IMG/VR virus record: IMGVR_UViG_3300020478_001251
Span: 19,278 to 83,277 of that record
Strand: one strand, 5' to 3'
Length of the DNA: 64,000 nt
DNA from: a virus
Both the position numbers and the translations under genes were made by a program. Under the pieces are notes generated by a model. That model ran no database searches and was not told where the DNA came from. It worked only from the letters and a program-made list of their open reading frames with translations. Below are positions 25,650 through 63,512 of this stretch, piece after piece (positions within the stretch are counted from its first letter, which is position 1; every line of letters starts with the position of its first letter).

Positions 25650-28600
25650 TTAAGGTGCTTTTCCTGCATTATGAACAGCAATAGCATTATCACCAAGTTT
25701 TACAAAATAAGTATTATTATCCTCAACATCTAACTTAACAAACAACGCTTCAGATTCAGTATAATTTATCGTTTTAATACTCACAAGTTCTTTATTTGAA
25801 TTAACTAATTTATCAGTATATTTATCTAACGACTTAGCCCTTACCCAACAATATTTAGGTGTAGCTTCTGTAATATTTCCATCATTATTTAATGATAAAT
25901 CTCTATACACTAAGAATGGATGTTCATATGTTGATTTTATACTATTATCATTTTCATCAATTATTTCATAATGGTCATAATAATAATCTTGTCCATTAAA
26001 TACTGCATCTGAATCTGTTATTGATGCACCCGCAATTGAACCTGTTGACCAAAAACCATAATCACCAAAATTATCACTATTTGGTAAACCATCAATATTC
26101 ATAGATTTTAATGAATCTGTTAATGTTACATCTTCAATATTTTTCCAAGTTCCATCATTCATCCATACTTTAGTTCCTAATGCAAAACAAGTTGTACCAG
26201 TACCACCTGATTCATCAAATACATTAACATTTACTTTCACTGCTTTCTTATTCAATCCAGCAGTTTCAGAGTTGTAAAATGCTTTAATAACATAATTCTC
26301 TTCAATAGTACCTTCAGCAGTAATTCCTGTCTCCATACCCAAAGCAACAAAAGCTTTTGAATTATCATCGGTCATATCACCACCAACCCAAAGTTTAATT
26401 GTATCTAATGCAGATACTTCATTTGAAATGGCACCTGAGAATCCACTATATGCTTCTGTAGTTGCAGTTTGATTTTGTAATTTAACTCTTAAAGTTGTTG
26501 TACCATCCGTACTAACTGCACCAGCCGAACCTGTTCTTCCAATATTCAAATGCATTTTCATACCAGAACCAGCAGTTCCTGGGAAATTATTATTACTTGT
26601 ATCATTAATGTGAAAATATACTTCGACATCATCTGTTCCAGAAAGTTCACCCGATTCCACACTCGTTCCACCTATCCACCAAATTTCATCACCTTGTCCT
26701 TGATATCCTGAAATGTTAACATCATATGGATATGTTAATGGTGTTCCAGGAACTCTCCATACCAACGCATCATTTGCACTGACAGTGAATGAATGATTAT
26801 TTGCAAGATTTCCACTTGTTGAACTTGGATAACCACCATATTTACAATAAATTGTCCAACTACCAGGTTCTAATGATACAGAACTAAATGTAAATGGTCC
26901 TGTTCCTGTGGTAGTTCCTAAGTTTTTCCAACTTGAACCATTATAAGCTCCAAAATAAAGTGTGGCATCATTATTGACTGTAATAGTTCCACTATTTACA
27001 GCTCCACCAAATTGATTTACACCATTTCTTGAATTCCTAACATTCGCTCCATTAGTATAACTACCATTTGTTACTGAAGTTACAGATTTTCCAGTTGAAT
27101 TTGCCGCTAATGCAGAATATCCACCATTATTCCATTCAAACCCAACTGCATCATTAATAGAACTATTTCTTGTCCAAGTAAACGCTACAGTCTTTGTTGT
27201 TGCTTTACCGGTTATTGTAACCGACCTATCATTATTTGCACCATATGTATAATCAGCTAAATCACCTATGGAACTAACCGAGGCACCCGTTGTAGTTTGT
27301 GAAGAAGCTAAACTTGATATTGCATCTGGTGGTATTGCCAGTTCATCGTAATATTCATCAATCCCACCATCTGCACCTATTTTCATCACATCATTATTAT
27401 ATGCACTCAAACCACTATTCCATTGATAGTTATGATAATATTGATTAGCACCATCTGTAATAGCAACTGACCCATCTGCCATAAGTTTATAAACTTCAGT
27501 TCCATCACCAACAGGGTCATTAAGGTCTCCATAAATTCTACAATCACTTCCAGCTGCACCACCTCCTGTTGTATCATTAAATGCACCTTCTGGTGTAGAA
27601 TAACCACCAGACCATTTTCCTGTAGAACTATTACAGGATTGATAAGTAGTCAATGTGTTTGGATGGTTTAAACTAACAGAAGTGGTAAATAAAACTGGTG
27701 AAACAGTCGGGTCATTAGTTGTATCATGATTTTGAAATGTAAAACGAACTTTAGCTGTTGTTGTTCCAGTTCCTACAGCGGCATCTACATATCCTAAATT
27801 TATAACCTCATCAACAATTTCACGCTCAGTTGTATGACTATCATCTATATTAGAAAGTGTAACTGATGTTGTATTACCAGTCGAAGTAGAATAACCGACT
27901 GTATTACTACCATCAGATAAATCTATCACTACATTCATGGCAGAAGCACCAAGTTGTCTAAATCCTTGATATGTAAAATCCTCGACCACTAATTGGTCTG
28001 ATTCTACACCAACTTTTAAACTTGTTTTGTTTAAACTCATCGCACTTATCGCAGGATAATGATACAATGCAATTCCAACTGCTGTTGCAGATGTTGTATC
28101 AGAATCAGAACCACCCTCACAAGTAATATCAAGTGTTACTGTCCCAGTTCCTGCAGTTCCTGTTGCCGTTAATAATGCCGTAGATGTAGATGCATCACTA
28201 ATTGACCAAACGGCAGTATTATCACTATAAGCATAAGTAACAACATTATCTGTTGCATTTGTTGGTGAATTAAAATGTAATGTTGTATCTGTACTATTAT
28301 TTAAAGTAGTTCTAAATATTGTGGCTGGTGCACTAATTACATTTTTACTATTAGTTGCATCTGGATAAAGTTGATATCGAGCTGATGCATTTGCAGTTCC
28401 AGATTCATCCGAAGTAGATGCACCACCATTATCATCAACATAAGAATTATCATTATATGGCACCATTCTATAATAATAATTTGTAGTGTTTGTAGAATGA
28501 CCATCAAGTGTAATAGAAGTACCTGTAGTTGTTTTACCACTAACATTTCCCCAAGTGACATCATCGGAAGACCTTTGTAGTTGGTAATATGCCGCATATG

Positions 28601-30902
28601 TACTTGCATTAAAACTTACAGATTTACCAGCAACATATCCACTTCCCTCGGCCGTAGTCCAAGCACCAGTAGTAGTTGGAGCTTTATCAATTATTGTAAT
28701 ATCTTGTAAAGCGGAAGTTCTTGTTTGTGGTAGATTATTTGGTGCCGAACCTTCAAAATCAAAAACCATAATATCATATAAACCACACTTAGCTGCAGAT
28801 AATGCAGGTGTGGTGATTGCATAGTTATTATCAGTATCCGTATTATCAGAAGTCATTGCCACAGTCGCAAGTTTTGTTGTATCACTATGGTCGTAAAAAT
28901 CTTCATCATCGACAGATGCAAATCCTAAACATATATCTCCCTTTGCTACATTCTTAGATTGCCAATCTATTCTAAGTGTATTTGATGCACCTCTTCTCAC
29001 AACACGACTACTTACCCATCCACCACCACCAACCGATGTTGATAGTGCTCCAAAAGATTGTGCCCCAAGTAATGTTACATTAATTGCGACTGTGGCTTGT
29101 GTTGATGTTGTACCATTTCCACTTGCTGTTACACCAAATGTTTTTGAACCAGCAGTTGTTCCTGAAAAATTTCCAGCCAAAGTATTATCCGTTTCACTTG
29201 AATCTGAAAATCCAGATGGTATTGTCCATGTAAATCCATTTGTTGAAATTGTATCACCCGCGGCAGTTGCAGTAAATGATAATGAAGTGGCACTAATTCC
29301 TGTTGGTGTAAGTCCAGTACTATATGTATTTGCAAACCCTACCGCCGATGTTAACGAACTATCTTCAACTAAACTTACAGTCGGTCTGACTGTTAATGTA
29401 TCTGTTTGGTTGTTTGTTTGTGAATAATTCGATGTTCCAGCAAAACTAATTGTATAAACTCCATTTGCAGAACCTGGTGTCATTGTGGCACTATTCGTTC
29501 CACTGCCAATATTTGGACTTGAAGTAATAGCAACACTTGCACCATTTCCAGCCGAAACTGATGCCACAAAAGCTTGAGTATTATTTATATCAATTGTTGT
29601 ATTTCCTGTAGTTGAATAAGTTAAAGTTGGTGCAACTGAAATACCAGAACCTGCAGTTAAATTTTGGTCTCCACCAGTAAGATAATACGCTTTTGGATAA
29701 TATGTAGTAAGACCTGTACCTGTAGCAGTTAATGATGTAGATGTATTACTCCAAGTAGATGCTGAATATAATGAATTAACGAGTCCTGCAGTATAATCTG
29801 TAAAGGTTGTATTAGAATTAGATGTTCCCCAACCAACTCTTAGAGCGACAGAACCACCACTATTATCAGCACCTTTAGAAACTGCATTCATTGTTACTGA
29901 ATCACCAGCATTAAATGTTCCATCACCAATTGCAGCAACATCATCCCACGACCTTGTATAAGGAACATCTACAATTGCCGTACTCGTTGTTGTATTTCTT
30001 GTATTTGGATTATTAACATCTCCACTATCTGGATATCCATAATGTGTAGTTGTAAATGTCATTTTACCTGGAGTATTTAAAACTTGTATTCCACCCTCTA
30101 CCAAATTTAAATGATATATATTACCACCATCTCCGTTCACATTAATAGCCCTTGAAACAGATGATGAAAATTGTGTACCCGTTGTTACGGCCGTGGCATA
30201 ACTTAATGTTCCATTACCTGATGGCCCAATATATTGGTCTGATTCTGAAACAAATGTTTGATATGTTGCTCCAGCACCCGCCGATTGAATATTAGTAGTT
30301 CCATGTCCAGATATAGAATCACGATATCTGAATTTAGTATCTGCAAAATTTGAATTATAACTCGAATCATCATCAGCAACTTTAAATTTTAGTGTTGCAC
30401 CATCTTGTGTTCCTGGAGTAATTCCTAAAGATACACCTACATATGCCGTTCCACTACCATCTGTATCATCTGCATCAGTATGAGCAGGTGAAACAGAAGA
30501 ACCCGCATCAGTAACAACTTCAAATTCAGCTGTATTTACTATACCTGAATTATCAATTGCTAACATCACAAGAGTTTCACCCTCTACCATTGTAGAGTTA
30601 GCATCATTGGCCGCATTACCATCTAATTGATTTGAACCAACACTACCTCGATATAATACAAAACTTTCAAATGTACCTGGATAATCCGCACTATAAAAAT
30701 GTGATATCCTATCTTCATCCGCACCTAATAATGTTCTTAAAGTTGATGAAGCTGTTGGTGAATTACTTAAAACGGCAGCATTTGCAAATGCATCTGAAAA
30801 ACTATCTAATGACATATCAGAACCAGAAGTTACTGATGATGTTTCGTTCTGGTTCTTATATAAATCCGAAAATTTTATCTCACCACTACTTGTTATTGCC
30901 AT
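25650..30902 (-). CDS. Large tail-fibre/adhesin-like protein with C-terminal Hint domain
   Basis: 1750 residues. The N-terminus MAITSSGEIKFSDLYKNQNE resembles phage tail proteins that start with a short attachment helix. The body is a long run of Gly/Ser/Thr-rich beta segments like Ig or cadherin-like repeats (for example SVTMNAVSKGADNSGGSVAL, YYRMVPYNDNSY). The last 180 residues form a Hint domain: TTCFALGTKVWMNDGTWKN (Cys near 1571), KSTYEHPFLVYRD (block B His), and the end NTYFVKLGDNAIAVHN followed by AGKAP. Only five residues follow the terminal Asn, so cleavage there would leave almost nothing. It overlaps the 3' end of the giant fibre gene by 17 nt. Confidence 0.75.
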   Translation of the reverse strand: MAITSSGEIKFSDLYKNQNETSSVTSGSDMSLDSFSDAFANAAVLSNSPTASSTLRTLLGADEDRISHFYSADYPGTFESFVLYRGSVGSNQLDGNAANDANSTMVEGETLVMLAIDNSGIVNTAEFEVVTDAGSSVSPAHTDADDTDGSGTAYVGVSLGITPGTQDGATLKFKVADDDSSYNSNFADTKFRYRDSISGHGTTNIQSAGAGATYQTFVSESDQYIGPSGNGTLSYATAVTTGTQFSSSVSRAINVNGDGGNIYHLNLVEGGIQVLNTPGKMTFTTTHYGYPDSGDVNNPNTRNTTTSTAIVDVPYTRSWDDVAAIGDGTFNAGDSVTMNAVSKGADNSGGSVALRVGWGTSNSNTTFTDYTAGLVNSLYSASTWSNTSTSLTATGTGLTTYYPKAYYLTGGDQNLTAGSGISVAPTLTYSTTGNTTIDINNTQAFVASVSAGNGASVAITSSPNIGSGTNSATMTPGSANGVYTISFAGTSNYSQTNNQTDTLTVRPTVSLVEDSSLTSAVGFANTYSTGLTPTGISATSLSFTATAAGDTISTNGFTWTIPSGFSDSSETDNTLAGNFSGTTAGSKTFGVTASGNGTTSTQATVAINVTLLGAQSFGALSTSVGGGGWVSSRVVRRGASNTLRIDWQSKNVAKGDICLGFASVDDEDFYDHSDTTKLATVAMTSDNTDTDNNYAITTPALSAAKCGLYDIMVFDFEGSAPNNLPQTRTSALQDITIIDKAPTTTGAWTTAEGSGYVAGKSVSFNASTYAAYYQLQRSSDDVTWGNVSGKTTTGTSITLDGHSTNTTNYYYRMVPYNDNSYVDDNGGASTSDESGTANASARYQLYPDATNSKNVISAPATIFRTTLNNSTDTTLHFNSPTNATDNVVTYAYSDNTAVWSISDASTSTALLTATGTAGTGTVTLDITCEGGSDSDTTSATAVGIALYHYPAISAMSLNKTSLKVGVESDQLVVEDFTYQGFRQLGASAMNVVIDLSDGSNTVGYSTSTGNTTSVTLSNIDDSHTTEREIVDEVINLGYVDAAVGTGTTTAKVRFTFQNHDTTNDPTVSPVLFTTSVSLNHPNTLTTYQSCNSSTGKWSGGYSTPEGAFNDTTGGGAAGSDCRIYGDLNDPVGDGTEVYKLMADGSVAITDGANQYYHNYQWNSGLSAYNNDVMKIGADGGIDEYYDELAIPPDAISSLASSQTTTGASVSSIGDLADYTYGANNDRSVTITGKATTKTVAFTWTRNSSINDAVGFEWNNGGYSALAANSTGKSVTSVTNGSYTNGANVRNSRNGVNQFGGAVNSGTITVNNDATLYFGAYNGSSWKNLGTTTGTGPFTFSSVSLEPGSWTIYCKYGGYPSSTSGNLANNHSFTVSANDALVWRVPGTPLTYPYDVNISGYQGQGDEIWWIGGTSVESGELSGTDDVEVYFHINDTSNNNFPGTAGSGMKMHLNIGRTGSAGAVSTDGTTTLRVKLQNQTATTEAYSGFSGAISNEVSALDTIKLWVGGDMTDDNSKAFVALGMETGITAEGTIEENYVIKAFYNSETAGLNKKAVKVNVNVFDESGGTGTTCFALGTKVWMNDGTWKNIEDVTLTDSLKSMNIDGLPNSDNFGDYGFWSTGSIAGASITDSDAVFNGQDYYYDHYEIIDENDNSIKSTYEHPFLVYRDLSLNNDGNITEATPKYCWVRAKSLDKYTDKLVNSNKELVSIKTINYTESEALFVKLDVEDNNTYFVKLGDNAIAVHNAGKAP

Positions 30903-48252: not shown

Positions 48253-48969
48253 CTATTTCCAATCTACAATTTTAAATAAATTGTAAGATATTCCAAAACC
48301 AATAACTGGTTCAGTTAAACCAGTTTGTTGATTATAAACAATGCCCCCAAATGGCCCAATACTAAGTTGATTTCGTGGAGCTTTTATTTTCATTGGATTT
48401 CCAGTTCTTCCTCTTAATCTTATTCCGTTAAAATCACTCTCAGGAATTAATGGATAATATTCACCTTTGATTTCACCCTCAACTATTTCTGGCATAGGTA
48501 ATTCTAAACTACCATTAAATGCTAAATCTGTTTCATAGTCTACAATAGAATCTCCAACAATTCGAATACCACTTCTACCAAAAATTCTCAGATAGTTACT
48601 TTGAGTGCCAAATTCTTTTTCAAATGGCACTATTCCAGTCGAACCACCATTAGTATTACTATATTGATAAATATCGATACTATCAAGTTTTGAGTTTACT
48701 TCCAGTAATTCCCTTTGTAGATTCTGAATTTCTTGTGTCAATTCAGATATCTTATTATATTGGTCTACATCTAATTGTGCTATTTCATTTATGTTTGTTC
48801 TATTAGTATCGATATCATTAGTATTTTCTATAATTAATTCATCTTGTCTTTTTGAATCATCTTTTAGAAAATCCATTTCTTGTTTAGCATAATAATATCT
48901 TGTTCCAACTATGACACAAATAAAAATCCCATTTAATAGTAACCCTAATATTAACTCTCTTTTATTCAT
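48253..48969 (-). CDS. Membrane-anchored coiled-coil protein, spanin-like
   Basis: 238 residues. An N-terminal membrane helix (ELILGLLLNGIFICVIVGT) is followed by a predicted coiled coil (residues about 30-100). The C-terminal region has NQLSIGPFGGIVY and VIGFGISYNLFKIVDWK, a pattern seen in outer-membrane-directed proteins. An inner-membrane anchor plus a periplasmic coil and outer-membrane-like end would suit a one-piece spanin, but this is only a shape argument. It is between a holin-like gene and a CsgG-like gene. Confidence 0.4.
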   Translation of the reverse strand: MNKRELILGLLLNGIFICVIVGTRYYYAKQEMDFLKDDSKRQDELIIENTNDIDTNRTNINEIAQLDVDQYNKISELTQEIQNLQRELLEVNSKLDSIDIYQYSNTNGGSTGIVPFEKEFGTQSNYLRIFGRSGIRIVGDSIVDYETDLAFNGSLELPMPEIVEGEIKGEYYPLIPESDFNGIRLRGRTGNPMKIKAPRNQLSIGPFGGIVYNQQTGLTEPVIGFGISYNLFKIVDWK

Positions 48970-48973
48970 ATAA

Positions 48974-49492
48974 TTACTTTATTTTAACTATCGCATCATC
49001 AATGGCTTTTCTAACAGCACCACCCAATTCACTTTGACCGAATTGAGCTTCATCCTCAATTTGTAATCCAGCCGCTGTAATTTGTGTTTCTATTTCACCA
49101 CTTCCACGATAAGCTCTTGTAACTCCTTCTTTATTATCAATCATATTAATCACCAAATTTATTTGTGTTGATTGTTTTCTACGATTAAATAAACCAACAA
49201 TACTAAACGCCTCGTTTGGTTTACCAATATAAAGAACTTCTACATTTGCAGTAAAATCAGCATTATCATCTTCAGTTAATTGATACCTTGTTTCTAAAAA
49301 TTGTTCTTCTAACAATTGACGAATACCCAAAGTAACTTTGTTATCTTCAATTCCAACTGATTCATCTACTTTAACGAATTGTGATATTTTTAATGTAGGC
49401 CAAGATACATCTTCACCAACTACAACTGGTGTAGGTAGAGATTGTGTATATCCAAATCCCATCATTAATAACATCAAAATTAGTTTTTTCAT
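48974..49492 (-). CDS. CsgG-like periplasmic protein with signal peptide
   Basis: 172 residues from ATG at 49492, with AAGGAGA upstream; an upstream in-frame extension overlaps the preceding gene and lacks the signal-peptide start. The signal peptide MKKLILMLLMMGFGYTQ would be cut before SLP. The mature part resembles CsgG-type assembly proteins: VTLGIRQLLEEQF, ADFTANVEVLYIG, STQINLVINMIDNKEG, and a C-terminal ELGGAVRKAIDDAIVKIK. It has no lipobox Cys. The second CsgG-like gene (50495-51136) is a lipoprotein. It may assist secretion or outer-membrane assembly. Confidence 0.5.
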   Translation of the reverse strand: MKKLILMLLMMGFGYTQSLPTPVVVGEDVSWPTLKISQFVKVDESVGIEDNKVTLGIRQLLEEQFLETRYQLTEDDNADFTANVEVLYIGKPNEAFSIVGLFNRRKQSTQINLVINMIDNKEGVTRAYRGSGEIETQITAAGLQIEDEAQFGQSELGGAVRKAIDDAIVKIK

Positions 49493-49502
49493 TTTCTTCT
49501 CC

Positions 49503-50489
49503 TTAAAAGTATGTCCCAAATAATAGGTTAAAAGTTTTACTTCTTTCACCATAATCATTTACGACAGTGTTATATCCCATACTCACACCTAAATTGAATG
49601 TGAACGCTTGTCCAAGTTTCCAATCAACAGCAAGTGTTGGAAATAACATTATTGGACTTCTTAATAATAAATATGATGAATCGCGATTTAAACCACCATA
49701 ATATCTAAGTAATGTGTAAGATACATAATTACTCAATGTTACATTAACACTACGAAATTTAATAGGTATTCTCATACCATATAATACATTTAAATTTCCA
49801 AAAGTATTATCACTAACACTACCAAAACTCGCCGTCAATACAATAACTTCAGCTTGTTCCTTTACTAACGATTTTGCATAAGATGTTGATGCTAACCAAT
49901 CCCATCCTGTAAATGTTTTAAAAGTTACTCCTGTGGCACTTATTACTCTATTCTGTTTTTTAGCAAGAAAATTAACTCCTTGTCCATAAGTTCCACTAAA
50001 TCTTTTAAAATCATTAGTAAAATTTACATTACCATCATATCTACTTTTCCCATCAAAACTTGTTCTTGTGTAAACACTATTAAATGATGTTACCCAAGTA
50101 GTATCCTTTTGTGGTGAACTTCTAATAGCATAATTAACCTGTGTTGGTTCATTACTAATATCACTTTTACTAAATTGTTCTGTAGCATTACTTGCTAATG
50201 CTGAAGCAAGAATCTCTTCCGCAACTCTAACTGCACAAGGGAATAAATCTTCGAAATCATTGTAAACTCCCTCTGCCCAAGATTCTAACTCTCCATTCAG
50301 AACTTGTTCTAATGTAAAAAATTTTGTTCGATTATAATAAGTGACTCTAAAACCTTCGCCATCTTGAGTTACACTATAAGAATGTCCTTGTATTAAATTT
50401 TTATCACAAGGGTCTATGTAACTATAAAAAAAGCCTTGGGCAGAGAGACTACTGCATAATAATATTATGTATAAAACCCTCTGCCACAT
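49503..50489 (-). CDS. Outer-membrane beta-barrel protein with signal peptide
   Basis: 328 residues. Signal peptide MWQRVLYIILLCSSLSAQ, then a soluble N-terminal part with two Cys (FFYSYIDPCDKNLI, EDLFPCAVRVAEEIL), then alternating aromatic/hydrophobic strands typical of a barrel, and an end NLLFGTYF with terminal Phe as in outer-membrane proteins. It lies directly between the two CsgG-like genes, in the place of an outer-membrane partner. No specific family is recognised. ATG at 50489 follows the CsgG-like lipoprotein stop by 5 nt. Confidence 0.6.
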   Translation of the reverse strand: MWQRVLYIILLCSSLSAQGFFYSYIDPCDKNLIQGHSYSVTQDGEGFRVTYYNRTKFFTLEQVLNGELESWAEGVYNDFEDLFPCAVRVAEEILASALASNATEQFSKSDISNEPTQVNYAIRSSPQKDTTWVTSFNSVYTRTSFDGKSRYDGNVNFTNDFKRFSGTYGQGVNFLAKKQNRVISATGVTFKTFTGWDWLASTSYAKSLVKEQAEVIVLTASFGSVSDNTFGNLNVLYGMRIPIKFRSVNVTLSNYVSYTLLRYYGGLNRDSSYLLLRSPIMLFPTLAVDWKLGQAFTFNLGVSMGYNTVVNDYGERSKTFNLLFGTYF

Positions 50490-50494
50490 TCATT

Positions 50495-51136
50495 TTACCA
50501 ACCTCTTCGGTCAATTGCTTTAATAACATTGACTACGGCTGTTTCCATAGCTTTGTTTGAAGCAGAACTTAAAGAACTTTGATTCCAACTCATATCAGGA
50601 TTTATTAAAAATCCTTTACCTATGGTTGAAGCTCTTCCTTGTCCACTACCAACTACATATTGTGTATTTTCGAGATTAACAAGTTTTACTTGAATACCAA
50701 CTATGGTTTCATTACTTGTTACAACTTTACCACCCTTGATATCTTCTTTCAAGTTTACGGCAAAATCATAAATGGTTACATATCCCCAATATTTAGCTTT
50801 ATCGATTTTTGCATTGTTGGCCTTTAAATCATTTAACATCGCTAACTGATTATCTCTATCAGCCTCAATCAAATTAAACCTACCAACATAAGATACTACA
50901 TTCTGTAGTTCTTGTGTTAGTCCAAACGCAACTCTCTTTTCAGCTAATTCAGGATATTGTTCTTCAACTTCTTTGTTGAACTTTACCTCTACAATTTTTA
51001 ATCCGTCAACTTTAGTGATTTCCACTTCATCAAGTGATTTCTGTTTCTCGTATTCACCAACATATTGTTCGGTTGATACTGATGCGGCACATCCTATAAA
51101 AACCATTGCAAACAACATTGAGAATAGTTTGTTCAT
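50495..51136 (-). CDS. CsgG-like outer-membrane lipoprotein
   Basis: 213 residues. The signal peptide ends in a lipobox (MVFIGCAAS), so the mature protein is probably a lipoprotein. The domain shows CsgG-family features: ELQNVVSYVGRFNLIEADRD, VTIYDFAVN, VGIQVKLVNLENTQYV and NKAMETAVVNVIKAI. CsgG forms the curli export pore in Enterobacteria. No curlin subunit or CsgE/F is obvious here. CsgG-like genes have been reported in some marine myoviruses (general recollection, not checked). It overlaps the preceding gene by 4 nt. Confidence 0.65.
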   Translation of the reverse strand: MNKLFSMLFAMVFIGCAASVSTEQYVGEYEKQKSLDEVEITKVDGLKIVEVKFNKEVEEQYPELAEKRVAFGLTQELQNVVSYVGRFNLIEADRDNQLAMLNDLKANNAKIDKAKYWGYVTIYDFAVNLKEDIKGGKVVTSNETIVGIQVKLVNLENTQYVVGSGQGRASTIGKGFLINPDMSWNQSSLSSASNKAMETAVVNVIKAIDRRGW

Positions 51137-51531
51137 TTTTTATCTCCTCTTGTTTCCCATCCATAAGGTCGTTTTTTATTATGTCCCTTATGATGAGATT
51201 TTTTAGCGTATTCGTGTCCTATCCAAAAAGAAATTCCACCAACAACTACATAACTTAAAACTCTATGTTTTTTTGTTGGTTTTTTAACTTCATATCTTTT
51301 ATGGTCTAATGCTCTCATGTGAGCTCTTTTATGTGCTGCTTCGAATTTTCTCCATTCAGCATCTTGAGCTCCCATCCACACCTTTTGTCCCCAAGAAAGT
51401 TTATTCATCTTTTCTTGAGCAAGATTTTGTCTCATTTCTCTTTGTTCTTGTTTAGTAATTTCTTTATCGGTTTCTGTTTGTTGTCCAAATAAAGGAACCA
51501 TTAAACATATCATAAATACTATCTTTTTCAT
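51133..51531 (-). CDS. Exported or membrane basic protein
   Basis: 132 residues. N-terminal signal peptide (MKKIVFMICLMVPLFGQ) cut before QTE, a basic helical body with Trp (SWGQKVWMGAQDAEWRKFE, HKRAHMRALDHKR), one hydrophobic segment (LSYVVVGGISFWIGHE) and a His/Lys-rich tail. No family recognised. The combination suggests a periplasmic or membrane protein. It overlaps the CsgG-like lipoprotein gene by 4 nt. Confidence 0.5.
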   Translation of the reverse strand: MKKIVFMICLMVPLFGQQTETDKEITKQEQREMRQNLAQEKMNKLSWGQKVWMGAQDAEWRKFEAAHKRAHMRALDHKRYEVKKPTKKHRVLSYVVVGGISFWIGHEYAKKSHHKGHNKKRPYGWETRGDKK

Positions 51532-51544
51532 AGTACTCCTTTCC

Positions 51545-51925
51545 CTATCTGAAATCAGATAGTGGGTCTTTTAATAATTTCTCCAATCGTTTAATCTCAT
51601 CTTGTAATTTATCAATCTCATTTTCAAGTTTGATAATATCACCATCATAAGATTTAACTTTTGGTGTTTTTAATCCATCAACTTTCTCACGAAGATATTT
51701 AAAATCTTCATCATACTTATTGAATTTTTCTGTTACAATTTCTATATCAGAGGCTTCTGCAAATCCTTGAACTACTTCTTCCAACCCATCAATACGGCCA
51801 GTAAAACTATACCAACCAGCAATGACGGTAGAAAGAAAAGTAACAATAGCAATAATATTATTAATTGATACTTTGAATCCTTTTGATTTAACTTCTTCAA
51901 TTGCTTGTTCTATATCCTTTGCCAT
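51545..51925 (-). CDS. Single-TM coiled-coil protein, holin- or anchor-like
   Basis: 126 residues from ATG at 51925 (GGAG seven bases ahead); another ATG five codons upstream is less likely. One membrane helix (NNIIAIVTFLSTVIAGWYSF) is followed by a long charged coiled coil (SDIEIVTEKFNKYDEDFKYL, ENEIDKLQDEIKRLEKLLKD). It lies just after the PorV/PorQ-like gene and before the basic exported protein. It has the same TM-plus-coil form as 47998-48243 and could be a second holin-like or a scaffold protein. Confidence 0.45.
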   Translation of the reverse strand: MAKDIEQAIEEVKSKGFKVSINNIIAIVTFLSTVIAGWYSFTGRIDGLEEVVQGFAEASDIEIVTEKFNKYDEDFKYLREKVDGLKTPKVKSYDGDIIKLENEIDKLQDEIKRLEKLLKDPLSDFR

Positions 51926-51926
51926 C

Positions 51927-52793
51927 TTATATCTCCACATTTATTGTTAATAATAGAGTATTTTTTAGTGGATGTGTTTCATCACCTTGTAACATACCCA
52001 ACCCTATTTTATATCTGTCATATTTTATATCAAGACCTACTGATGGATAATTCAATTGATTATCAATATCATTGAAATATCCTGCCTTAAACCAAAGCAT
52101 ATCTTTATAATTATAAGATATTCCTTGACCATGTGTATAATATCCATCATATAAGTTCCATTGATTATAAATATCCCATTCTTTAATTGGAATTTGTATT
52201 CCCACATTAAAACTTGTTGGTATTTCCAAACTATAACCATTCATCTTTGTCATTAAACCAAAGTTTTGAACAGCAAAATCTACATTAACTCTACCATATA
52301 ATTTTTCAAGATGTATTCCAGCATCAAATAACATTCCATTTGTTTTTTCTAAATGTAAATCATGAAATACTACCTTTCCTCTAAATCCAATAGATACACT
52401 ATCCATCTTCTCACCTTTATACTTTAATGGTGTTCCCCAACCTACAGCAGCTGCCATAGAATTAGGTGAAAAGTGTCCATTTACCAATCCATCTACATCG
52501 GTATATTTTTGTTCACCATAATCAAAATATAGTAAACTAAAATCAAAAGTTTTCCAATTGGCTTGAACATAATTATATCCCATATCGTCAACAATATTAC
52601 CCAACCATTTTACATTAGTAAAACTTAAATCCGTTGTAGTATCAGTATTGAATGAATTCATTGCTGGATTTCTAAACGCTAACGATTGATTACCAAGTAT
52701 TGTTTCTCCTGTTGTTGGTGAAATTGTTAATATACGATTAACTTGTCCAAACAAGGAAGTTATCAAAAGTAATCCTAATAATACATTTTTCAT
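51927..52793 (-). CDS. PorV/PorQ-like outer-membrane beta-barrel with signal peptide
   Basis: 288 residues from ATG at 52793 (an upstream GTG lies inside the TM gene). Signal peptide MKNVLLGLLLITSLFGQ. The mature start (TGETILGNQSLAFRNPAMNS) and barrel strands (VKWLGNIVDDMGYNYVQANW, SVSIGFRGKVVFHDL, VNVDFAVQNFGL, PTSFNVGIQIP, KIGLGML) resemble PorV/PorQ proteins of FCB bacteria, which carry T9SS cargo at the outer membrane. The cargo-like protein at 52897-55557 is two genes upstream. No single diagnostic motif exists, so this is a fold and context call. Confidence 0.6.
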   Translation of the reverse strand: MKNVLLGLLLITSLFGQVNRILTISPTTGETILGNQSLAFRNPAMNSFNTDTTTDLSFTNVKWLGNIVDDMGYNYVQANWKTFDFSLLYFDYGEQKYTDVDGLVNGHFSPNSMAAAVGWGTPLKYKGEKMDSVSIGFRGKVVFHDLHLEKTNGMLFDAGIHLEKLYGRVNVDFAVQNFGLMTKMNGYSLEIPTSFNVGIQIPIKEWDIYNQWNLYDGYYTHGQGISYNYKDMLWFKAGYFNDIDNQLNYPSVGLDIKYDRYKIGLGMLQGDETHPLKNTLLLTINVEI

Positions 52794-52897
52794 TTCTCTA
52801 TTCTCTCCTGTGTCCACATAATAAATTTAAACAACCCATAAAAGATTGTTAATCCTATTGGTATTCCTATTATAAAAAGTGTTTGTTCATAATTCAT
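52790..52897 (-). CDS. Small single-TM protein
   Basis: 35 residues: MNYEQTLFIIGIPIGLTIFY and then GLFKFIMWTQERIEK. It is mostly one membrane helix with a basic/charged end. The ATG at 52897 overlaps the stop of the T9SS-cargo-like gene as TAATG, and the stop overlaps the PorV/PorQ-like start as ATGA, so it is coupled to both. No family recognised. Confidence 0.55.
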   Translation of the reverse strand: MNYEQTLFIIGIPIGLTIFYGLFKFIMWTQERIEK

Positions 52898-55557
52898 TAT
52901 TTGACGACCGTAAATTTATTTGCTTTAATTCTTTTATCTGTTTGTAGAACAAAAATATAAACACCTGGTTCTAATGGTTGGTGTTCTTGGTAAACACTAA
53001 CTTCTGGTAACCAAACACTTGGTTGGTTATTAAAATCAAATGTGTGAATTCCTGATTCCACTTCTTCATCTAACAAAGTTCCCATATATTGTCCATTAGA
53101 GTTTAATATGTAAAGTTTTACATTCTCTCTTTTATCCAAATAGAACTGAAATCTTGTAGTTTCTTTAAATGGATTTGGATAGTTATAAGTTATATCATCA
53201 TCTTGTGGTTCTCCACCACCAAATGCCCAATACTTATTCCATACTAATACCATACCATCACTTCTTTCCATTATTAAATCATCACCACTTGGATTACCTG
53301 CCGCGTGTTTTCCAGTAAACCTTACAGGTGCTTCTGTCCATTCTGCATCTGGGAAATCTGCTTTGAACAATAATTTTAATCCTGTAATTGGTTCATTAAT
53401 CCAATAAGTTTCAGGTGCATTACCTGGTGAATAATCCATACCACCAAATGAAACTTTTTGCCATCCATCTTCAGGTTCATGTGTGTTTATAAATGTGAAC
53501 CATGGTCCTGGTAAATTACCAGTTTTCATATCAATAAATTCTAATTCATTTGCTTTAAATTCTACTTCAAATTCAAATCCAGCAACATTAATATTTTTCA
53601 TCTGGTCTGGAGTAATTGTTAAAGGAACTTCAATTACATCACCACTACGAACTCGGACAGTTGAATCAGCTGGTAATGTTAAAAATACATCAGGAGTAGT
53701 AGTATTCACTGCCATTTTATTTGCCCAAGTATTAGGTGCATTACCATTACCCCATCGATAAAATGTATCACCATTTACATTAATGTATCCATCCGCACCA
53801 TTACCTGGTTCTTGAACTTTTGTTCCTGTGGTATTAATATCTCCTGTAAAGAAATACCCTAAACTATCAATTGTGTAATCTGGATTAGCATCACTTGTAT
53901 AGTTAGATGAACCTGCACCTATATTAATTTGCATAGTATCTAATCCAGTTTGAATTGTATTCATTAATGGATTTGTTATTTCAATTTGTCCAAAATTTAA
54001 ATCTTCAGATTGGTCAAAATCATCATCCTCAAAGACAGTAAATTCATATTTCTGATTTCCCCAATCTTCATACCAAACATAAGGAAATGGTTGATTGTTT
54101 TCTCTTAATGTATCAATGGTTGCCCAATTCTCATAACTTGTTCCATTTAAGTGTGTGTAGTTATCAAATATCTGTGATACATATGCCCATAAGAAATATG
54201 AATCATTTAATTGAAACACATCATCACCATCCACATCTCCAATAAAGTATTCTACAGCGTTTAGTGTATCAACACCTGCTACTGATTTAAACTTATTAGA
54301 TTGAAAATTAAATGAAGCAATAGCATCATTAATATTAGTAATTGCGTATCTATCAAGTGTGTATGATGTATGACTTTCGATATCATCATCCGCATCTGGT
54401 GGATAGAAAGACATACGATATTTTTGGTTTCTCGGTAATTGTATATTCCAATACCCTTTATCATCTGTAAAAGTCGAATCATAATAACTTACTCCTAAGA
54501 ATCCCTCACCTGGTAAAGTTTGGGCTGCTGTTGTTCCCTTTTTATCATAATAAAATGTTGATGAATGGTCACCAATAACATCATCAGAATTATCTTCATC
54601 AGTATTACTTGATGTATTAGTAACTGTCTCTATATTATACCAATTATTATATTCACCTGGATTACTTTGGTCTAACTCAAATCTTATCTTCCAATAAGGA
54701 TAAGTGTTTTCGGTTACATCTAAATTATTCCCTTGAACATATCTAAAATATCCCTCAACATCAACAAGTTTTGGATGTAATGTAATATCACCTCTTGCTC
54801 CACCATCATATGTTGATTCTGTTCCCCAGTTTCCATCGATATAAACTTTATAATCTAATAGATAATCATCCGAGGCATATGTGTAATATCCACTTCCACC
54901 ATTATACAATGTTGGAACTCTAAAAGATTGTGGTTGGAAATTATCTACCACATCTTCTATTTTAAAATATAATTTTAATAATTGTTTTTGTGTTCCATTT
55001 CCACCACCAAAAGTAAAGTCTGGTTCACCATCATCATCGTCATCCACACCATGTGATACCATAGTGATTCTTAACCAATCATAACGATTATTTGCTTGTG
55101 ATATTTCACCATCAGCAGTTTGTAATGAATCAATATATCCAACATTTGAATAGTGAACAACTTCATAAGAGTAATCTGCTCCTGCAGTTGAATCACCCTC
55201 TGTTGATGCGGCTAAATGTGAACCCTTTAATACTTCTGTATCATCGTGGTCCCAATCAATTAAATCATTATCAAATACTAAATCTAATCTAAACGCCGTA
55301 ATATCTGCATCATTATCATCTAAGGTAACTTCCATTACCATAACTGAATCTCTCCAGGCATCAAAATTATTATTATAGAGAGCAGGGTTATTTATATCAT
55401 CAGCCAAATAAGTTTGTAACTGATGCGTAACCGACTCTCTCCACCAAGTAGTTGGTGTATCGTAAGTTCCCAATTGTTTGATTCTAATTATCGGTTCCTG
55501 TGCCCACGATAATGAGAGAAGCAACACAAGTGAGAACGCTTTAAGCAACTTAAACAT
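52897..55557 (-). CDS. T9SS-cargo-like surface protein with cohesin/dockerin-like regions
   Basis: 886 residues. Signal peptide MFKLLKAFSLVLLLSLSWAQ. The N-terminal part (VMEVTLDDNDADITAFRLDL) and a part near 620-770 (VFLTLPADSTVRVRSGD, EVPLTITPDQMKNINVAGFE) look like cohesin folds. Near 440 FIGDVDGDDVFQLNDSYF looks like a dockerin calcium loop. The last 90 residues (ITYNYPNPFKETTRFQFYL, VKLYILNSNGQYMGTLL, GVYIFVLQTDKRIKANKFTV) form a YPNPF-type T9SS C-terminal sorting domain. Together they suggest a secreted, surface-displayed protein. GGAG lies 7 nt before the ATG, after a structured leader of about 200 nt. Confidence 0.75.
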   Translation of the reverse strand: MFKLLKAFSLVLLLSLSWAQEPIIRIKQLGTYDTPTTWWRESVTHQLQTYLADDINNPALYNNNFDAWRDSVMVMEVTLDDNDADITAFRLDLVFDNDLIDWDHDDTEVLKGSHLAASTEGDSTAGADYSYEVVHYSNVGYIDSLQTADGEISQANNRYDWLRITMVSHGVDDDDDGEPDFTFGGGNGTQKQLLKLYFKIEDVVDNFQPQSFRVPTLYNGGSGYYTYASDDYLLDYKVYIDGNWGTESTYDGGARGDITLHPKLVDVEGYFRYVQGNNLDVTENTYPYWKIRFELDQSNPGEYNNWYNIETVTNTSSNTDEDNSDDVIGDHSSTFYYDKKGTTAAQTLPGEGFLGVSYYDSTFTDDKGYWNIQLPRNQKYRMSFYPPDADDDIESHTSYTLDRYAITNINDAIASFNFQSNKFKSVAGVDTLNAVEYFIGDVDGDDVFQLNDSYFLWAYVSQIFDNYTHLNGTSYENWATIDTLRENNQPFPYVWYEDWGNQKYEFTVFEDDDFDQSEDLNFGQIEITNPLMNTIQTGLDTMQINIGAGSSNYTSDANPDYTIDSLGYFFTGDINTTGTKVQEPGNGADGYINVNGDTFYRWGNGNAPNTWANKMAVNTTTPDVFLTLPADSTVRVRSGDVIEVPLTITPDQMKNINVAGFEFEVEFKANELEFIDMKTGNLPGPWFTFINTHEPEDGWQKVSFGGMDYSPGNAPETYWINEPITGLKLLFKADFPDAEWTEAPVRFTGKHAAGNPSGDDLIMERSDGMVLVWNKYWAFGGGEPQDDDITYNYPNPFKETTRFQFYLDKRENVKLYILNSNGQYMGTLLDEEVESGIHTFDFNNQPSVWLPEVSVYQEHQPLEPGVYIFVLQTDKRIKANKFTVVK

Positions 55558-58679: not shown

Positions 58680-61600
58680 CTATTCAACTTTTAACTTAGA
58701 ATCACCAGGTTCTTGTGTTACAAGTTTTGTTGGTGTAGTAACGATAACTTCTACTGGTTCTTTTCCATCTATAGTATTCTTTTTTGTTAATAATTGTCCT
58801 TTGTAAAATAATCTAAACAAACTTGATTCATAAGCCATACTCTGAAACTCCGCTGGTTCAAATGATGAACTAAATGGTGTATCAGTATATGCATCTAATG
58901 AACTTGTATAAATCTTATTCTTAATTTCATTGTGTTCTGATAACCTTGATTGACTTATGAATGGTTGTAATGTTTCTGTAAATTCTGTTGTTGTTCCACC
59001 AAATGTTACACTAGCAGTTGCATATAAACTACCATAATCACTTCTTGCATCTATTTGATTAAGTCTAACTAATGATGGTAGTCCAAGTGTTCCAAGTGAA
59101 CTTGATTCCATATTATGTACATTTATTAATCCATCATAATTTGGAACTTCTCCCTCAAGCACAATACTTCTATCTGTAGAACCACTTACAAAATTACTTA
59201 AGCTTAATCCTCTTACAAACTCACCTGCATTTTCAAAATAATTATTGTCAAATTCAGGAGCCTTACCTACTATTTCTTTACTTCTCTCTAATATGTGTGG
59301 TTCTATTAAAACACCAAGTGTAGCATTTGCCCTTGCTGGTATAAATTTTTCTAATTGTTTCCATATACTTCCATCGTAAAAATCTATAATTCTTAAATAA
59401 TCCCAAAAGTTATTTGTTCTTGAATATTTTTTAAAATAATCACGATTAAGTTTATCTAATCCACGATAACTTAATCTATATTGGTCTCTTGGGTCTCCTA
59501 TCTCATTATCCACATTTAAACCAGCAACACTATATGCAATGTCCTCATTTAAAATATCTACAGGAGAAAAATAAATACCAAGTTTATTACTATCTACAGG
59601 AGCTAAATCAAATGCTGAAGCTTCACTTCTTACATTATGTGTTAATGAACTAATTAGTCTTGTAGGTTCAATTCTTATCTTGGTTGCATTTCTACGATTT
59701 GGACCAATATTTGGAATTTTCATTTCTTCAATATCTGTTAAACTTCTATATGCATTTCCAGTAAATAAATTTGTAGTTCCATTATGTTTATAAGTTTCAG
59801 GATATGCTCTGTTAACAATTGATGAAGTAGTTGCGTAAGTTACATTATTATCCAATGGATATCTCAATATCATATTATCATAATAAGAAGATGTTGTATT
59901 ACCATTATAAGTTTTTGGTGCTCTAACATGATTTTCAAATGCACTTTGTGATAATGGTTCACTCCATAATCTGAATTCCATTAATGAACCACTAAATTTA
60001 GTAGATACAAATTTACTTCCACTACCACCAATATATAAATTACCATTCGATTGGAATTTATCATTCCAACTTGTTTGTGCCGCGACCGTTCCATCAACAT
60101 TTAAACTTTCTGATGTTTGGTATAAAATTTTATTTCTTCCAGCATCATATTGTTTAGCACTTAACTCGTATTTAATTTTTTGTGAAGTAGTATCTGCAGT
60201 TAAATCAGTACCACTCTGTGATACTCTTGTTAACATTACACTCCACATATCATCATTATAAAATGGTTGTAAAGATGAACTCACCAAACCAACGGATGAT
60301 GAACCACTAATTGCAAAATCTAAATATCCATATGCATCTGTTTCACCATTATCTCTCAATTGTATTGCCCAATCTCCATCCTTTTGAACAATAACTTGGT
60401 CTTTTGATATTGGACTTCTAAATCTAAACTCAATAGTTTCTGGTTTTATTCCACTTGTTGTATCATCAGCCCATGATGTTTTAACATATTCACTTGATTT
60501 AAAATCTAATGCATATGTAAACTTTCTTTTTATTTCATAACTTACTCTATCATTTAAATCTGGACCACCATATTCACGAACTCTCAACATAGAACTTGGA
60601 ATACCATAACAATTTAATAATCCCTTAACTGCTCTAATGTTACCTTTGTTTCTCAAAAAGAAAGGTAAGTTATTTAAAATTCTTTTCCATATTTCTTCTG
60701 TTACTTCTTCTTGTGGTGATTCATATTTATCTGAACCATCAGGATTTTTACCCAATAAATATTCTGGTAAAATAACTAAATCATTTCCATTATCAACTTG
60801 AAAACCAAATCCTTTTGCCACTTCACGAACAATATCTTTTGAAATACCATCAGATAATTTATTTGAATGGTCATTGATATCTGTAAAGTGTTTTAGATAA
60901 GTCCAAATTTCATCAAATTGTTGTCCTGTCATATCAACGAAATCTAAAAATACATTATTATCTCTATCATTCCCAACATGCTGTGGTATATTATTTACTA
61001 ACCTATTTTGATTCTGAATATCATATGTTTTTGCATAATCTCTCCAAGTATCAAACCAAGTTGTTGAATCTGAATGACTTGTATGATTATTTACATATGG
61101 TGTTGAACTATTATCCTTAGGCCATGTTGCATTATAATATTCACCAACTGAAGATGAAACATAAGAACCAGATTCATAATACAAATATTTTTCATATGGG
61201 TCAAAACTATTTAAAACATTATTCTTTTTATTATCAATTTCTGTTCTCGTTCCCAAAGAACCTGTTACATTATTTAATGCTAAACTTTGTGATGTATATT
61301 TTTCTACTAACTCTAATTTACTTTTAAAGTTTTCAATTCGTTTTACAGCACTACCAAAATGTACAAAATTACCAAACCCATAATCACTTGTTCCAGGTTG
61401 TGGTTCATCATCATTTTGTAGTGCATTCGTTCTTTGAGAATAATCTATATTTAATTTAACATCTAATATACTTGATGATAGTATTTGATTTTCAATATCT
61501 TGTATGACCGTTGAATCAGTTCCTACTAAATCACCATGTTTTTTAAATGGTGTTCCTCTAAATGTAATTGGATTATTAACTGAATTTAAATCTGGTACTC

Positions 61601-63512
61601 TTAAAAATAAAAACTCTTCATCATCCGTTTCAAATGGAACTATGGTAACAACATCTTCATATGGCTCCATTTTTTCTTCTACAAAATAACATAAATCATT
61701 TTCTTCAATATCATCTTCAAGTGTTTCATATAATCTAAAATATCTTGAATCTTTATCCCCTGCATCCATAAGTGGTCCAAGTTCTGTAGGTGATTTTGCA
61801 TCTGCTATATTTGTAACTAAATTATATCCACTCTTAGTAACAAGGTAAGTATTTAATCTGTAGATATCACTTTTTGTAAAATTAACAACCCAACTATCAA
61901 ATATTTTTCTTGAATTATCTTCACCACTATGTCCAGCTTGTGTAGCACCAGCTTCATAACTTAAACTAACTTTAATTCTATCTCTATCAAGAACTTCAAT
62001 AATTCTAGCTTTATAATCAACTGGAACTTGTGTATAAGTTGTCATCACTTCTGGTGTAGCATTAGTATTAAAAGTTCCTGTATCATCTACAAGATTTTCT
62101 TCAAATAAACTTTGTTCTATAATTTCTCGTGTAACTGCAGTAAATGGTTCATCAACAATAGTTTCATCTTCTGAATCATACTGATTAGCCCTATAAGAAT
62201 TCTCTATATCACCACCATCATCGGATTCATCCAATCCTCTTAACATATCAATTCTTCTATTTCTTGATTCAAGAAAACGCTCACTCCAATGTGAAGATGG
62301 TGTTGAACTCCACTTACCAAGAGTTGCACTAACTATATTATTAGCATATATTGTATGATGTTTATCTAATACTAAATTCCAAACATCCAATGGTTTAGAT
62401 ATAAACTCCTTACCAATCTCATTTGCCATATACCACTTACCACGATATTTTATTGGATGGTGGTCTGTAGTTATAAGTTTTTTAAACTGAACTAATTTAT
62501 CACCAAATCCTCTATTATCTTTAACTACCTTTAATACTCTTGCGTAACCCTGTTCTGTTTTAACTTTCATACCAGGTTTCATCATCTTGATTGGTATGGT
62601 ACGATTGTTACTTAATTTTACTTTTGTATCACCAACAAAACAAACACTACCATAAACATCCTCATCTCTAAATCTCTCGTAATCTGCTGTAGGTTGTTCT
62701 AAATTTTCAGTATCTACTCTCGGGTCTGTTGGTTCTCCTGTACTGAGTGTTTCAAAAACTTGTGCTCTTTGTGCAGCACCCATAGCCGCTGGTGGTGTTC
62801 TTGGTTGTAGTTGTTCAGCCTTTGTATATCGATACATACCTTTAATAATAATATCACCACCTACATGAGCATCTATAAATCCTCTATCATTATCTGCTAA
62901 AGTTGCAACTAATATTTGTGGGTCTGTTAAATCAAATCTTATTTTACCACCACCATTACTTCTTTTTGGATTATAAACAATTGGTCGATTTATTTTTTGA
63001 AAATTCTTTTTATATTGAATATTATTTATTGTTTGTGTTCCAACTTTAACTTCTTTTTTATTAGCGGAAATTTCTTTAATAGTATATTTTAATTCTCTTG
63101 GATATAACTCTGTTAAGTTTGTTTTATCTCCACTTGTGTTATTTACAAAATATTGAGTTTTACCACCTACAACTCTTGTTTGTGCTTTTCCAACATGAAC
63201 AAAACCTCTTTCATCTGTTAGTAAAGTTTGTTCTTTACCAGCCACAGTCCTTAAAAATAAATACTTTACTTTATAACTACCCTCATCAAATCCAGCTTGT
63301 CTGACATGTGTTCCAACATCAACATCCATAACACCTTCAGTTTCAAAATTAAATTCGGTAATAGGTAAAACTTCATTACTTAATAAATTATCTTCTAAAT
63401 CATAGATATATAAATGGACATAATCGTTACTATCCAACCCAAAAGAACTATATAGTTTTCTTGGATTTTCTAATTGTATCTTATCCTTTTGTGTTAAACC
63501 TTTTACTTGCAT
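58680..63512 (-). CDS. Large virion structural protein with internal Hint domain and LamG-like region
   Basis: 1610 residues. Near 291 begins a Hint domain: SVCFVGDTKVKLSNNRTIP, then LITTDHHPIKYRG (block B) and HHTIYANNIVSATLG at its end (about 400), where Asn-Asn replaces the usual His-Asn. Near 1015-1200 is a LamG-like stretch (ETIEFRFRSPISKDQ, GNLYIGGSGSKFVSTKF, SGSLMEFRLWSEPLS). NLPFFLRNKGNIRAVKGLLN and SSMLRVREYGGPDLNDRVSY are typical of a large marine phage structural family. The Hint domain lies well inside the chain, so it would split or cross-link the protein if active. Possibly a baseplate or tail protein. Confidence 0.65.
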   Translation of the reverse strand: MQVKGLTQKDKIQLENPRKLYSSFGLDSNDYVHLYIYDLEDNLLSNEVLPITEFNFETEGVMDVDVGTHVRQAGFDEGSYKVKYLFLRTVAGKEQTLLTDERGFVHVGKAQTRVVGGKTQYFVNNTSGDKTNLTELYPRELKYTIKEISANKKEVKVGTQTINNIQYKKNFQKINRPIVYNPKRSNGGGKIRFDLTDPQILVATLADNDRGFIDAHVGGDIIIKGMYRYTKAEQLQPRTPPAAMGAAQRAQVFETLSTGEPTDPRVDTENLEQPTADYERFRDEDVYGSVCFVGDTKVKLSNNRTIPIKMMKPGMKVKTEQGYARVLKVVKDNRGFGDKLVQFKKLITTDHHPIKYRGKWYMANEIGKEFISKPLDVWNLVLDKHHTIYANNIVSATLGKWSSTPSSHWSERFLESRNRRIDMLRGLDESDDGGDIENSYRANQYDSEDETIVDEPFTAVTREIIEQSLFEENLVDDTGTFNTNATPEVMTTYTQVPVDYKARIIEVLDRDRIKVSLSYEAGATQAGHSGEDNSRKIFDSWVVNFTKSDIYRLNTYLVTKSGYNLVTNIADAKSPTELGPLMDAGDKDSRYFRLYETLEDDIEENDLCYFVEEKMEPYEDVVTIVPFETDDEEFLFLRVPDLNSVNNPITFRGTPFKKHGDLVGTDSTVIQDIENQILSSSILDVKLNIDYSQRTNALQNDDEPQPGTSDYGFGNFVHFGSAVKRIENFKSKLELVEKYTSQSLALNNVTGSLGTRTEIDNKKNNVLNSFDPYEKYLYYESGSYVSSSVGEYYNATWPKDNSSTPYVNNHTSHSDSTTWFDTWRDYAKTYDIQNQNRLVNNIPQHVGNDRDNNVFLDFVDMTGQQFDEIWTYLKHFTDINDHSNKLSDGISKDIVREVAKGFGFQVDNGNDLVILPEYLLGKNPDGSDKYESPQEEVTEEIWKRILNNLPFFLRNKGNIRAVKGLLNCYGIPSSMLRVREYGGPDLNDRVSYEIKRKFTYALDFKSSEYVKTSWADDTTSGIKPETIEFRFRSPISKDQVIVQKDGDWAIQLRDNGETDAYGYLDFAISGSSSVGLVSSSLQPFYNDDMWSVMLTRVSQSGTDLTADTTSQKIKYELSAKQYDAGRNKILYQTSESLNVDGTVAAQTSWNDKFQSNGNLYIGGSGSKFVSTKFSGSLMEFRLWSEPLSQSAFENHVRAPKTYNGNTTSSYYDNMILRYPLDNNVTYATTSSIVNRAYPETYKHNGTTNLFTGNAYRSLTDIEEMKIPNIGPNRRNATKIRIEPTRLISSLTHNVRSEASAFDLAPVDSNKLGIYFSPVDILNEDIAYSVAGLNVDNEIGDPRDQYRLSYRGLDKLNRDYFKKYSRTNNFWDYLRIIDFYDGSIWKQLEKFIPARANATLGVLIEPHILERSKEIVGKAPEFDNNYFENAGEFVRGLSLSNFVSGSTDRSIVLEGEVPNYDGLINVHNMESSSLGTLGLPSLVRLNQIDARSDYGSLYATASVTFGGTTTEFTETLQPFISQSRLSEHNEIKNKIYTSSLDAYTDTPFSSSFEPAEFQSMAYESSLFRLFYKGQLLTKKNTIDGKEPVEVIVTTPTKLVTQEPGDSKLKVE

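Follow-up and report, generated by a model that had tools for sequence, protein, structure and literature searches.

Introduction

In Flavobacterium johnsoniae and Porphyromonas gingivalis, cellular type A cargos of the type IX secretion system (T9SS) share one PorV, and the type A sorting domain has been seen by cryo-electron microscopy to be bound by PorV inside SprA (PMC10994853). Type B cargos are genetically linked to cognate shuttle barrels of the PorP/SprF kind (PMC12618676). Here we describe a marine phage locus that combines features of both arrangements. It lies in a stretch of 64,000 nucleotides (the window) that corresponds to bases 19278–83277 of an IMG/VR virus record of 83,277 bp, and it encodes a T9SS-type cargo protein (52897–55557, minus strand) and a PorV/PorQ-family outer-membrane barrel (51927–52793, minus strand). 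Like the cellular type A cargos, the phage cargo has a signal peptide, a type A sorting domain and a PorV-family barrel as partner, but in this case one phage encodes both partners. As in the type B systems, the cargo gene adjoins the gene of a putative dedicated shuttle barrel, although the sorting domain is of type A and the barrel of the PorV family.

Two kinds of phage genes related to this locus have been described. Bellas et al. reported in 2020 that Cryophage encodes T9SS type A cargo, with superinfection exclusion suggested as a possible function (PMC7468147). These phage genes also carry type A sorting domains and secretion via the host system was proposed for their products; however, they are accessory and hypervariable (endoglucanase, GH39, PA14 protein) and PorV is unmentioned, whereas in the window a single conserved cohesin cargo is accompanied by a PorV-family gene of its own in a fixed cassette. 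The initial annotation of the window, made from the sequence alone, knew of no described case, which agrees with the literature searched as regards cargo together with PorV but overlooks the cargo published in 2020. Secondly, the curli pore genes csgG/csgF occur in pelagimyophages and in the methylophage Melnitz (PMC7029224, PMC9004378). These marine phages encode a CsgG-fold outer-membrane lipoprotein and other envelope proteins, much as the window phage is predicted to, but their hosts are Proteobacteria without T9SS, whereas the putative CsgG-fold protein of the window lacks any match to CsgG in sequence and is linked to a T9SS cargo. Phage T9SS cargo and phage CsgG have thus each been published already, and new here are the PorV-family carrier, its strict pairing with the cargo and the joint cassette. 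None of these three was found in annotated GenBank phages or in the literature searched, a scope outside which most subscription journals and preprints lay. Phages are not known to supply components of so elaborate a secretion system as the T9SS.

Results

The cargo family was detected in 68 loci in a scan of viral contigs, and the PorV gene is the next gene after the cargo in all 52 viral loci whose sequence extends 950 nucleotides or more past the cargo end. Starting from PorV, a sorting-domain cargo lies upstream in 63 of 64 viral loci and the gene of a putative CsgG-fold protein downstream in 38 of 38. The sole exception among the 64 is a viral contig in which no sorting-domain cargo was detected in the sequence upstream of PorV; it is a 4.2-kb fragment with PorV at its end. 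The adjacency in 52/52 loci, together with the cargo upstream in 63/64, shows that the pairing is not due to chance, and dN/dS values of 0.05–0.34 in the closest pairs indicate purifying selection. The initial annotation gave the gene coordinates correctly and recognized a cargo/PorV pair that is real, but it placed the barrel two genes away in a unit coupled by stop/start overlaps. PorV is instead the immediate downstream neighbour, its ATG being separated from the cargo stop by 103 nucleotides, and the 14-nucleotide overlap is that of PorV with the gene after it. The larger cassette around the pair (a CsgG-fold lipoprotein, a barrel and further secreted proteins) and a cultured relative had also been missed.

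The cargo protein has 886 residues and, as first proposed, both a signal peptide and a T9SS sorting domain. The Sec signal peptide (residues 1–19; 55501–55557, minus strand) ends with cleavage after MFKLLKAFSLVLLLSLSWA and before Q20, as read from the sequence and the homologue alignment without a predictor; Q20 is nearly invariant in this alignment. The type A C-terminal sorting domain (residues 793–884; 52906–53181, minus strand) matches TIGR04183 with 25.6 bits (cut-off 23), and the Pfam model Por_Secre_tail (PF18962) gives 15.6 bits, below its cut-off of 27. All 37 aligned phage homologues match TIGR04183 (best E 1e-9), and the C-terminal motifs YPNPF, PG(V/I)Y and KFT (K881) are invariant or nearly so among them. 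Where a phage record has a match to a sorting domain, it encodes exactly one such protein. Further upstream in the chain, a cohesin domain (residues 634–704; 53446–53658, minus strand) is matched by PF00963 with 26.7 bits (cut-off 24.1) and recurs in 35 of 37 homologues, and a dockerin-like calcium loop, GDVDGDD....LND (residues 438–461; 54175–54246, minus strand), has D441, D443, G444, D445, D446, L450, N451 and D452 invariant. Pfam dockerin matches are sub-threshold and restricted to the cargo of a second lineage, that of the cultured Flavobacterium phage immuto (see below). No enzymatic domain was found in the cargo. The features of the protein are strong grounds for inferring that it is displayed at the surface, and the presence of a cohesin and a dockerin-like calcium loop in one chain suggests that the displayed protein assembles, alone or with others.

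Counted from the ATG, the PorV-family barrel has 288 residues; an alternative GTG start at 52817 would yield 296. It exceeds the cut-off of the family model NF033709 (PorV_fam; 94.2 bits, cut-off 90), and 31 of 32 homologues match this model, so that the original description as PorV/PorQ-like is sound at the level of the family. It does not extend to either equivalog, as the protein scores 48.7 against a cut-off of 250 for PorV (NF033710) and 54.5 against 220 for PorQ (NF033711). When a profile of the phage PorV homologues was compared with the whole PDB, the single match, even at E 10, was F. johnsoniae PorV in the SprA–PorV translocon (6h3i_F, E 7e-15). In a maximum-likelihood tree all phage PorVs form one clade (98/96) outside the PorVs of cellular Bacteroidota and the PorV-family proteins of Neomarinimicrobiota. 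Because of this placement we regard the phage PorV as an old phage gene, neither a recent pick-up nor an assembly error.

The PorV family includes barrels with other roles, and the phage protein could be another PorV/FadL-like type, such as a BamG-like assembly factor or an uptake channel, while the cargo uses the host PorV. The scores below both equivalog cut-offs would fit such a role, as would the length of the phage PorV, which is about 100 residues shorter than that of F. johnsoniae, the weak match of a BamG model to three of the 32 homologues, and the immuto lineage, which has a sorting-domain cargo without PorV. However, the PorV models far outscore BamG (best E 4e-36 versus 4e-6), PorV is the only PDB match and the barrel is consistently paired with the cargo. 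We therefore consider this alternative unlikely.

PorV-like proteins are also encoded by three unannotated faecal records filed as "Bacteriophage sp." (MT836897, MT836010 and MT835954; 8–15 kb). One of these proteins is 43% identical to Pontibacter PorV, and the records are possibly fragments of bacterial chromosomes filed as phage.

The cargo–PorV pair heads a syntenic envelope block that is conserved in relatives and lies entirely on the minus strand. PorV is followed by a small transmembrane/coiled-coil protein of 131 residues (51545–51940), whose position is kept in relatives with mostly 67–98% identity, and by a small secreted protein of 132 residues (51133–51531) that occurs only in some of them. 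Next comes a lipoprotein of 213 residues (50495–51136) with the lipobox ...FIGC. No CsgG family match and no meaningful sequence match to it was found in Pfam, NCBIfam or the PDB, but in a Foldseek search with its low-confidence AlphaFold2 model (pLDDT 59.5), CsgG chains took the first seven places (E 6e-7, TM-score about 0.5). The secreted protein of 328 residues encoded at 49503–50489 is modeled, also with low confidence (pLDDT 60), as a helix and an outer-membrane barrel of about 11 strands, the nearest Foldseek match being a weak one to the amyloid porin FapF. A second secreted, CsgG-related lipoprotein-like protein follows (48974–49558, with the true start probably at 49492). Homologues of this protein in relatives are matched by the CsgG-fold profile (E 1e-7 to 1e-11), and its own matches to the Pfam families Lipoprotein_16 and DUF4136 are sub-threshold. 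A transmembrane/coiled-coil protein of 238 residues (48253–48969), again in a position kept in relatives, closes the block. A scan for promoters gave no more matches than in shuffled sequence.

Among 50,697 GenBank phage records, the only significant homologue of the CsgG-fold protein, full-length and 30% identical, is encoded by Flavobacterium phage vB_FspM_immuto (NC_055915), whose host is a Flavobacterium and whose terminase is 54% identical to that of the window phage. Its genes gp013–gp019 make up a homologous cassette: gp015 is a cargo, gp016 a transmembrane protein, gp017 the CsgG-fold protein, gp018 the barrel homologue (E 6e-14) and gp019 the second CsgG-like lipoprotein (E 1e-6). In GenBank, gp015 is annotated as a "cohesin domain-containing protein", and the genes of the CsgG-fold protein and the barrel are listed as hypothetical. 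The gp015 product is a cohesin protein with a strong sorting domain (44.8 bits), and hhalign matches it to the C-terminal third of the cargo in the window (probability 96%, E 6e-9). Unlike in the window, no PorV was found in immuto, the cargo is split into gp014 and gp015, and a C-type lectin gene precedes it. That the cargo is split over two genes follows from contigs of the same lineage, whose gene order is the same and whose 640-residue cargo is covered to 95% by an alignment to gp014 followed by gp015 (E 6e-45). This cargo passed the TIGR04183 cut-off in all seven cases tested, and a cohesin was found around or above the cut-off in the five scanned with Pfam. Compared directly with hhalign, the profile of the window cargo matched gp014 without significance and the full immuto-lineage cargo weakly (probability 7%, E 0.005). 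As this second lineage keeps the cargo, CsgG-fold and barrel genes without PorV, we take the sorting-domain cohesin cargo and the CsgG-fold and barrel genes as the core of the cassette, to which PorV was added in the marine lineage unless the other lineage has lost it. The lectin gene gp013 (positions 10527–11525 in immuto) encodes a secreted protein with a dockerin-like tail, and gp013 and gp014/gp015 together resemble a small cohesin–dockerin surface scaffold.

The composition of the block could also point to a cassette that serves mainly egress or lysis: a CsgG-fold pore, the barrel and the transmembrane/coiled-coil proteins would permeabilise or restructure the outer membrane late, while cargo and PorV mark or clear surface sites. 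For the CsgG of Melnitz, a function in the timing of lysis like that of a pinholin or secretin has been suggested (PMC9004378), the block in the window adjoins structural genes and small transmembrane proteins, and two cassette proteins have weak PHROG matches to spanins. On closer view these matches are driven by coiled coils or lipoprotein signals, an 886-residue cargo with a sorting domain has no obvious part in lysis, and in immuto the genes around the block are nucleotide and replication genes, with the endolysin encoded elsewhere, so we assign a use mainly in egress only a small probability. The same position in immuto, outside the structural module, implies that the cassette is not tied to the virion module. 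This bears on a further explanation, namely that the cargo is a virion protein, a fibre or decoration, with a vestigial sorting domain. The window cargo does lie directly downstream of structural genes, and Ig-like domains are frequent in phage virion proteins. Nevertheless, every member retains the signal peptide and the sorting domain, and the downstream neighbours of the cargo have signal peptides as well, which makes a virion protein quite improbable.

The locus is of phage origin. The remainder of the record, outside the window, encodes a prohead protease (PHROG E 8e-52), a portal (8e-70) and a terminase large subunit (6.5e-51), the last being 54–55% identical to the terminases of the cultured phages immuto and Mel-JY01. 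T9SS genes are normally cellular, but a mis-joined host contig or a recent host pick-up, which the initial annotation had named as a possible refutation and for which nothing was found, can be dismissed. The locus recurs, flanking genes included, in more than 60 viral contigs that were assembled separately, and terminase and portal lie on the same record as the window. The GC content of about 30% has no break across the locus, and a homologous block is present in the cultured phage immuto. In a scan of 84,980 species, with one genome for each, the cargo had no cellular relative, and the single close PorV match came from a 9-kb contig that itself belongs to this phage type. Microcystis phage Mel-JY01 (PP395634) is filed under a cyanobacterial host; its terminase is the one 55% identical to that of the window phage, and no sorting-domain, PorV or CsgG-fold gene was found in it.

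Phage records searched for SprA gave no match, and the translocon must therefore be that of the host. Candidate hosts of the window phage are Bacteroidota or Neomarinimicrobiota. All 11 small Neomarinimicrobiota genomes examined (0.8–1.0 Mb) encode SprA and two to four sorting-domain proteins, and no full-length PorU sortase was found above the cut-off in them. A Flavobacteriales metagenome-assembled genome that contains a contig of this phage type, which is a hint toward the host from binning only, encodes SprA and the PorU sortase together with dozens of sorting-domain proteins. A small-genome Neomarinimicrobiota host had been considered from the first per-piece PorV scores and was dropped, since whole-protein scores of Pontibacter PorV are equal and the tree places the phage PorVs outside both groups. 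An origin of the cargo from the sorting-domain protein of about 850 residues of small Neomarinimicrobiota was also rejected, as the phage cargo profile gives no match to it.

Discussion

We consider it rather probable that the locus is a surface-display cassette that exploits the T9SS of the host, and the phage probably uses this export machine to coat or remodel the infected cell's surface. Judging from its signal peptide, the cargo would reach the periplasm by Sec, where its C-terminal sorting domain would be recognised by the host translocon SprA. The phage PorV-family barrel, given its family membership and strict linkage, may be dedicated to this cargo as a shuttle or anchor, receiving the sorting domain from SprA and keeping the cargo at the outer membrane. 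We propose this mechanism because of the cryo-electron microscopy of the type A cargo route and the type B precedent of cargo-linked shuttle genes. The cohesin and dockerin-like modules might then mediate calcium-dependent protein–protein assembly at the surface, with the CsgG-fold lipoprotein and the barrel as a putative accompanying outer-membrane complex. Whether phages of T9SS bacteria generally carry such a type A client-and-shuttle pair, that is a private PorV-family carrier within a CsgG-fold envelope cassette that rebuilds the outer surface of the host, is in our estimate evenly balanced.

Several observations weigh against the proposed surface display by the T9SS. The sorting domain of the window cargo is barely above the NCBIfam cut-off and below that of Pfam, and the barrel stays below both equivalog cut-offs, belongs to a family with other roles and has the few weak BamG matches among its homologues. 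Moreover, the immuto lineage manages without a phage PorV, and T9SS is known here from candidate host lineages rather than from the window phage's own host.

The most likely use of the cassette would be to alter the surface of the infected cell. Superinfection exclusion is our leading guess for the benefit, albeit a tentative one that we would not favor over the other possibilities combined. The cassette may also act in adhesion or aggregation, as in the "sibling capture" suggested for the curli genes of pelagimyophages (PMC7029224), or in egress. If the proposed function is correct, a T9SS component would for the first time be known from a virus, and the pair would represent a type A cargo with its own dedicated carrier. 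A cargo/carrier pair conserved in dozens of marine viruses would show a dedicated phage reprogramming of the surface of T9SS bacteria, and a single cassette would join two isolated observations, the T9SS-tagged phage genes and the CsgG genes of marine phages. The presence of the cassette core in a cultured phage of Flavobacterium makes these ideas accessible to experiment.

Elsewhere in the window, Hint/intein-like stretches occur in large structural-looking proteins encoded on the minus strand at 23372–24412, 25650–30902 and 58680–63512. They are C-terminal in the first two, for which a Pfam scan gave sub-threshold Hint matches, and internal in the third (CFVGDTKVKL...). The minus strand of 460–22677 harbors about 20 genes that, read by eye, resemble genes of surface-sugar biosynthesis and host takeover, among them NAD-dependent epimerases, SGNH-hydrolase-like proteins, transketolase-like halves, glycosyltransferases and a radical-SAM-like protein.

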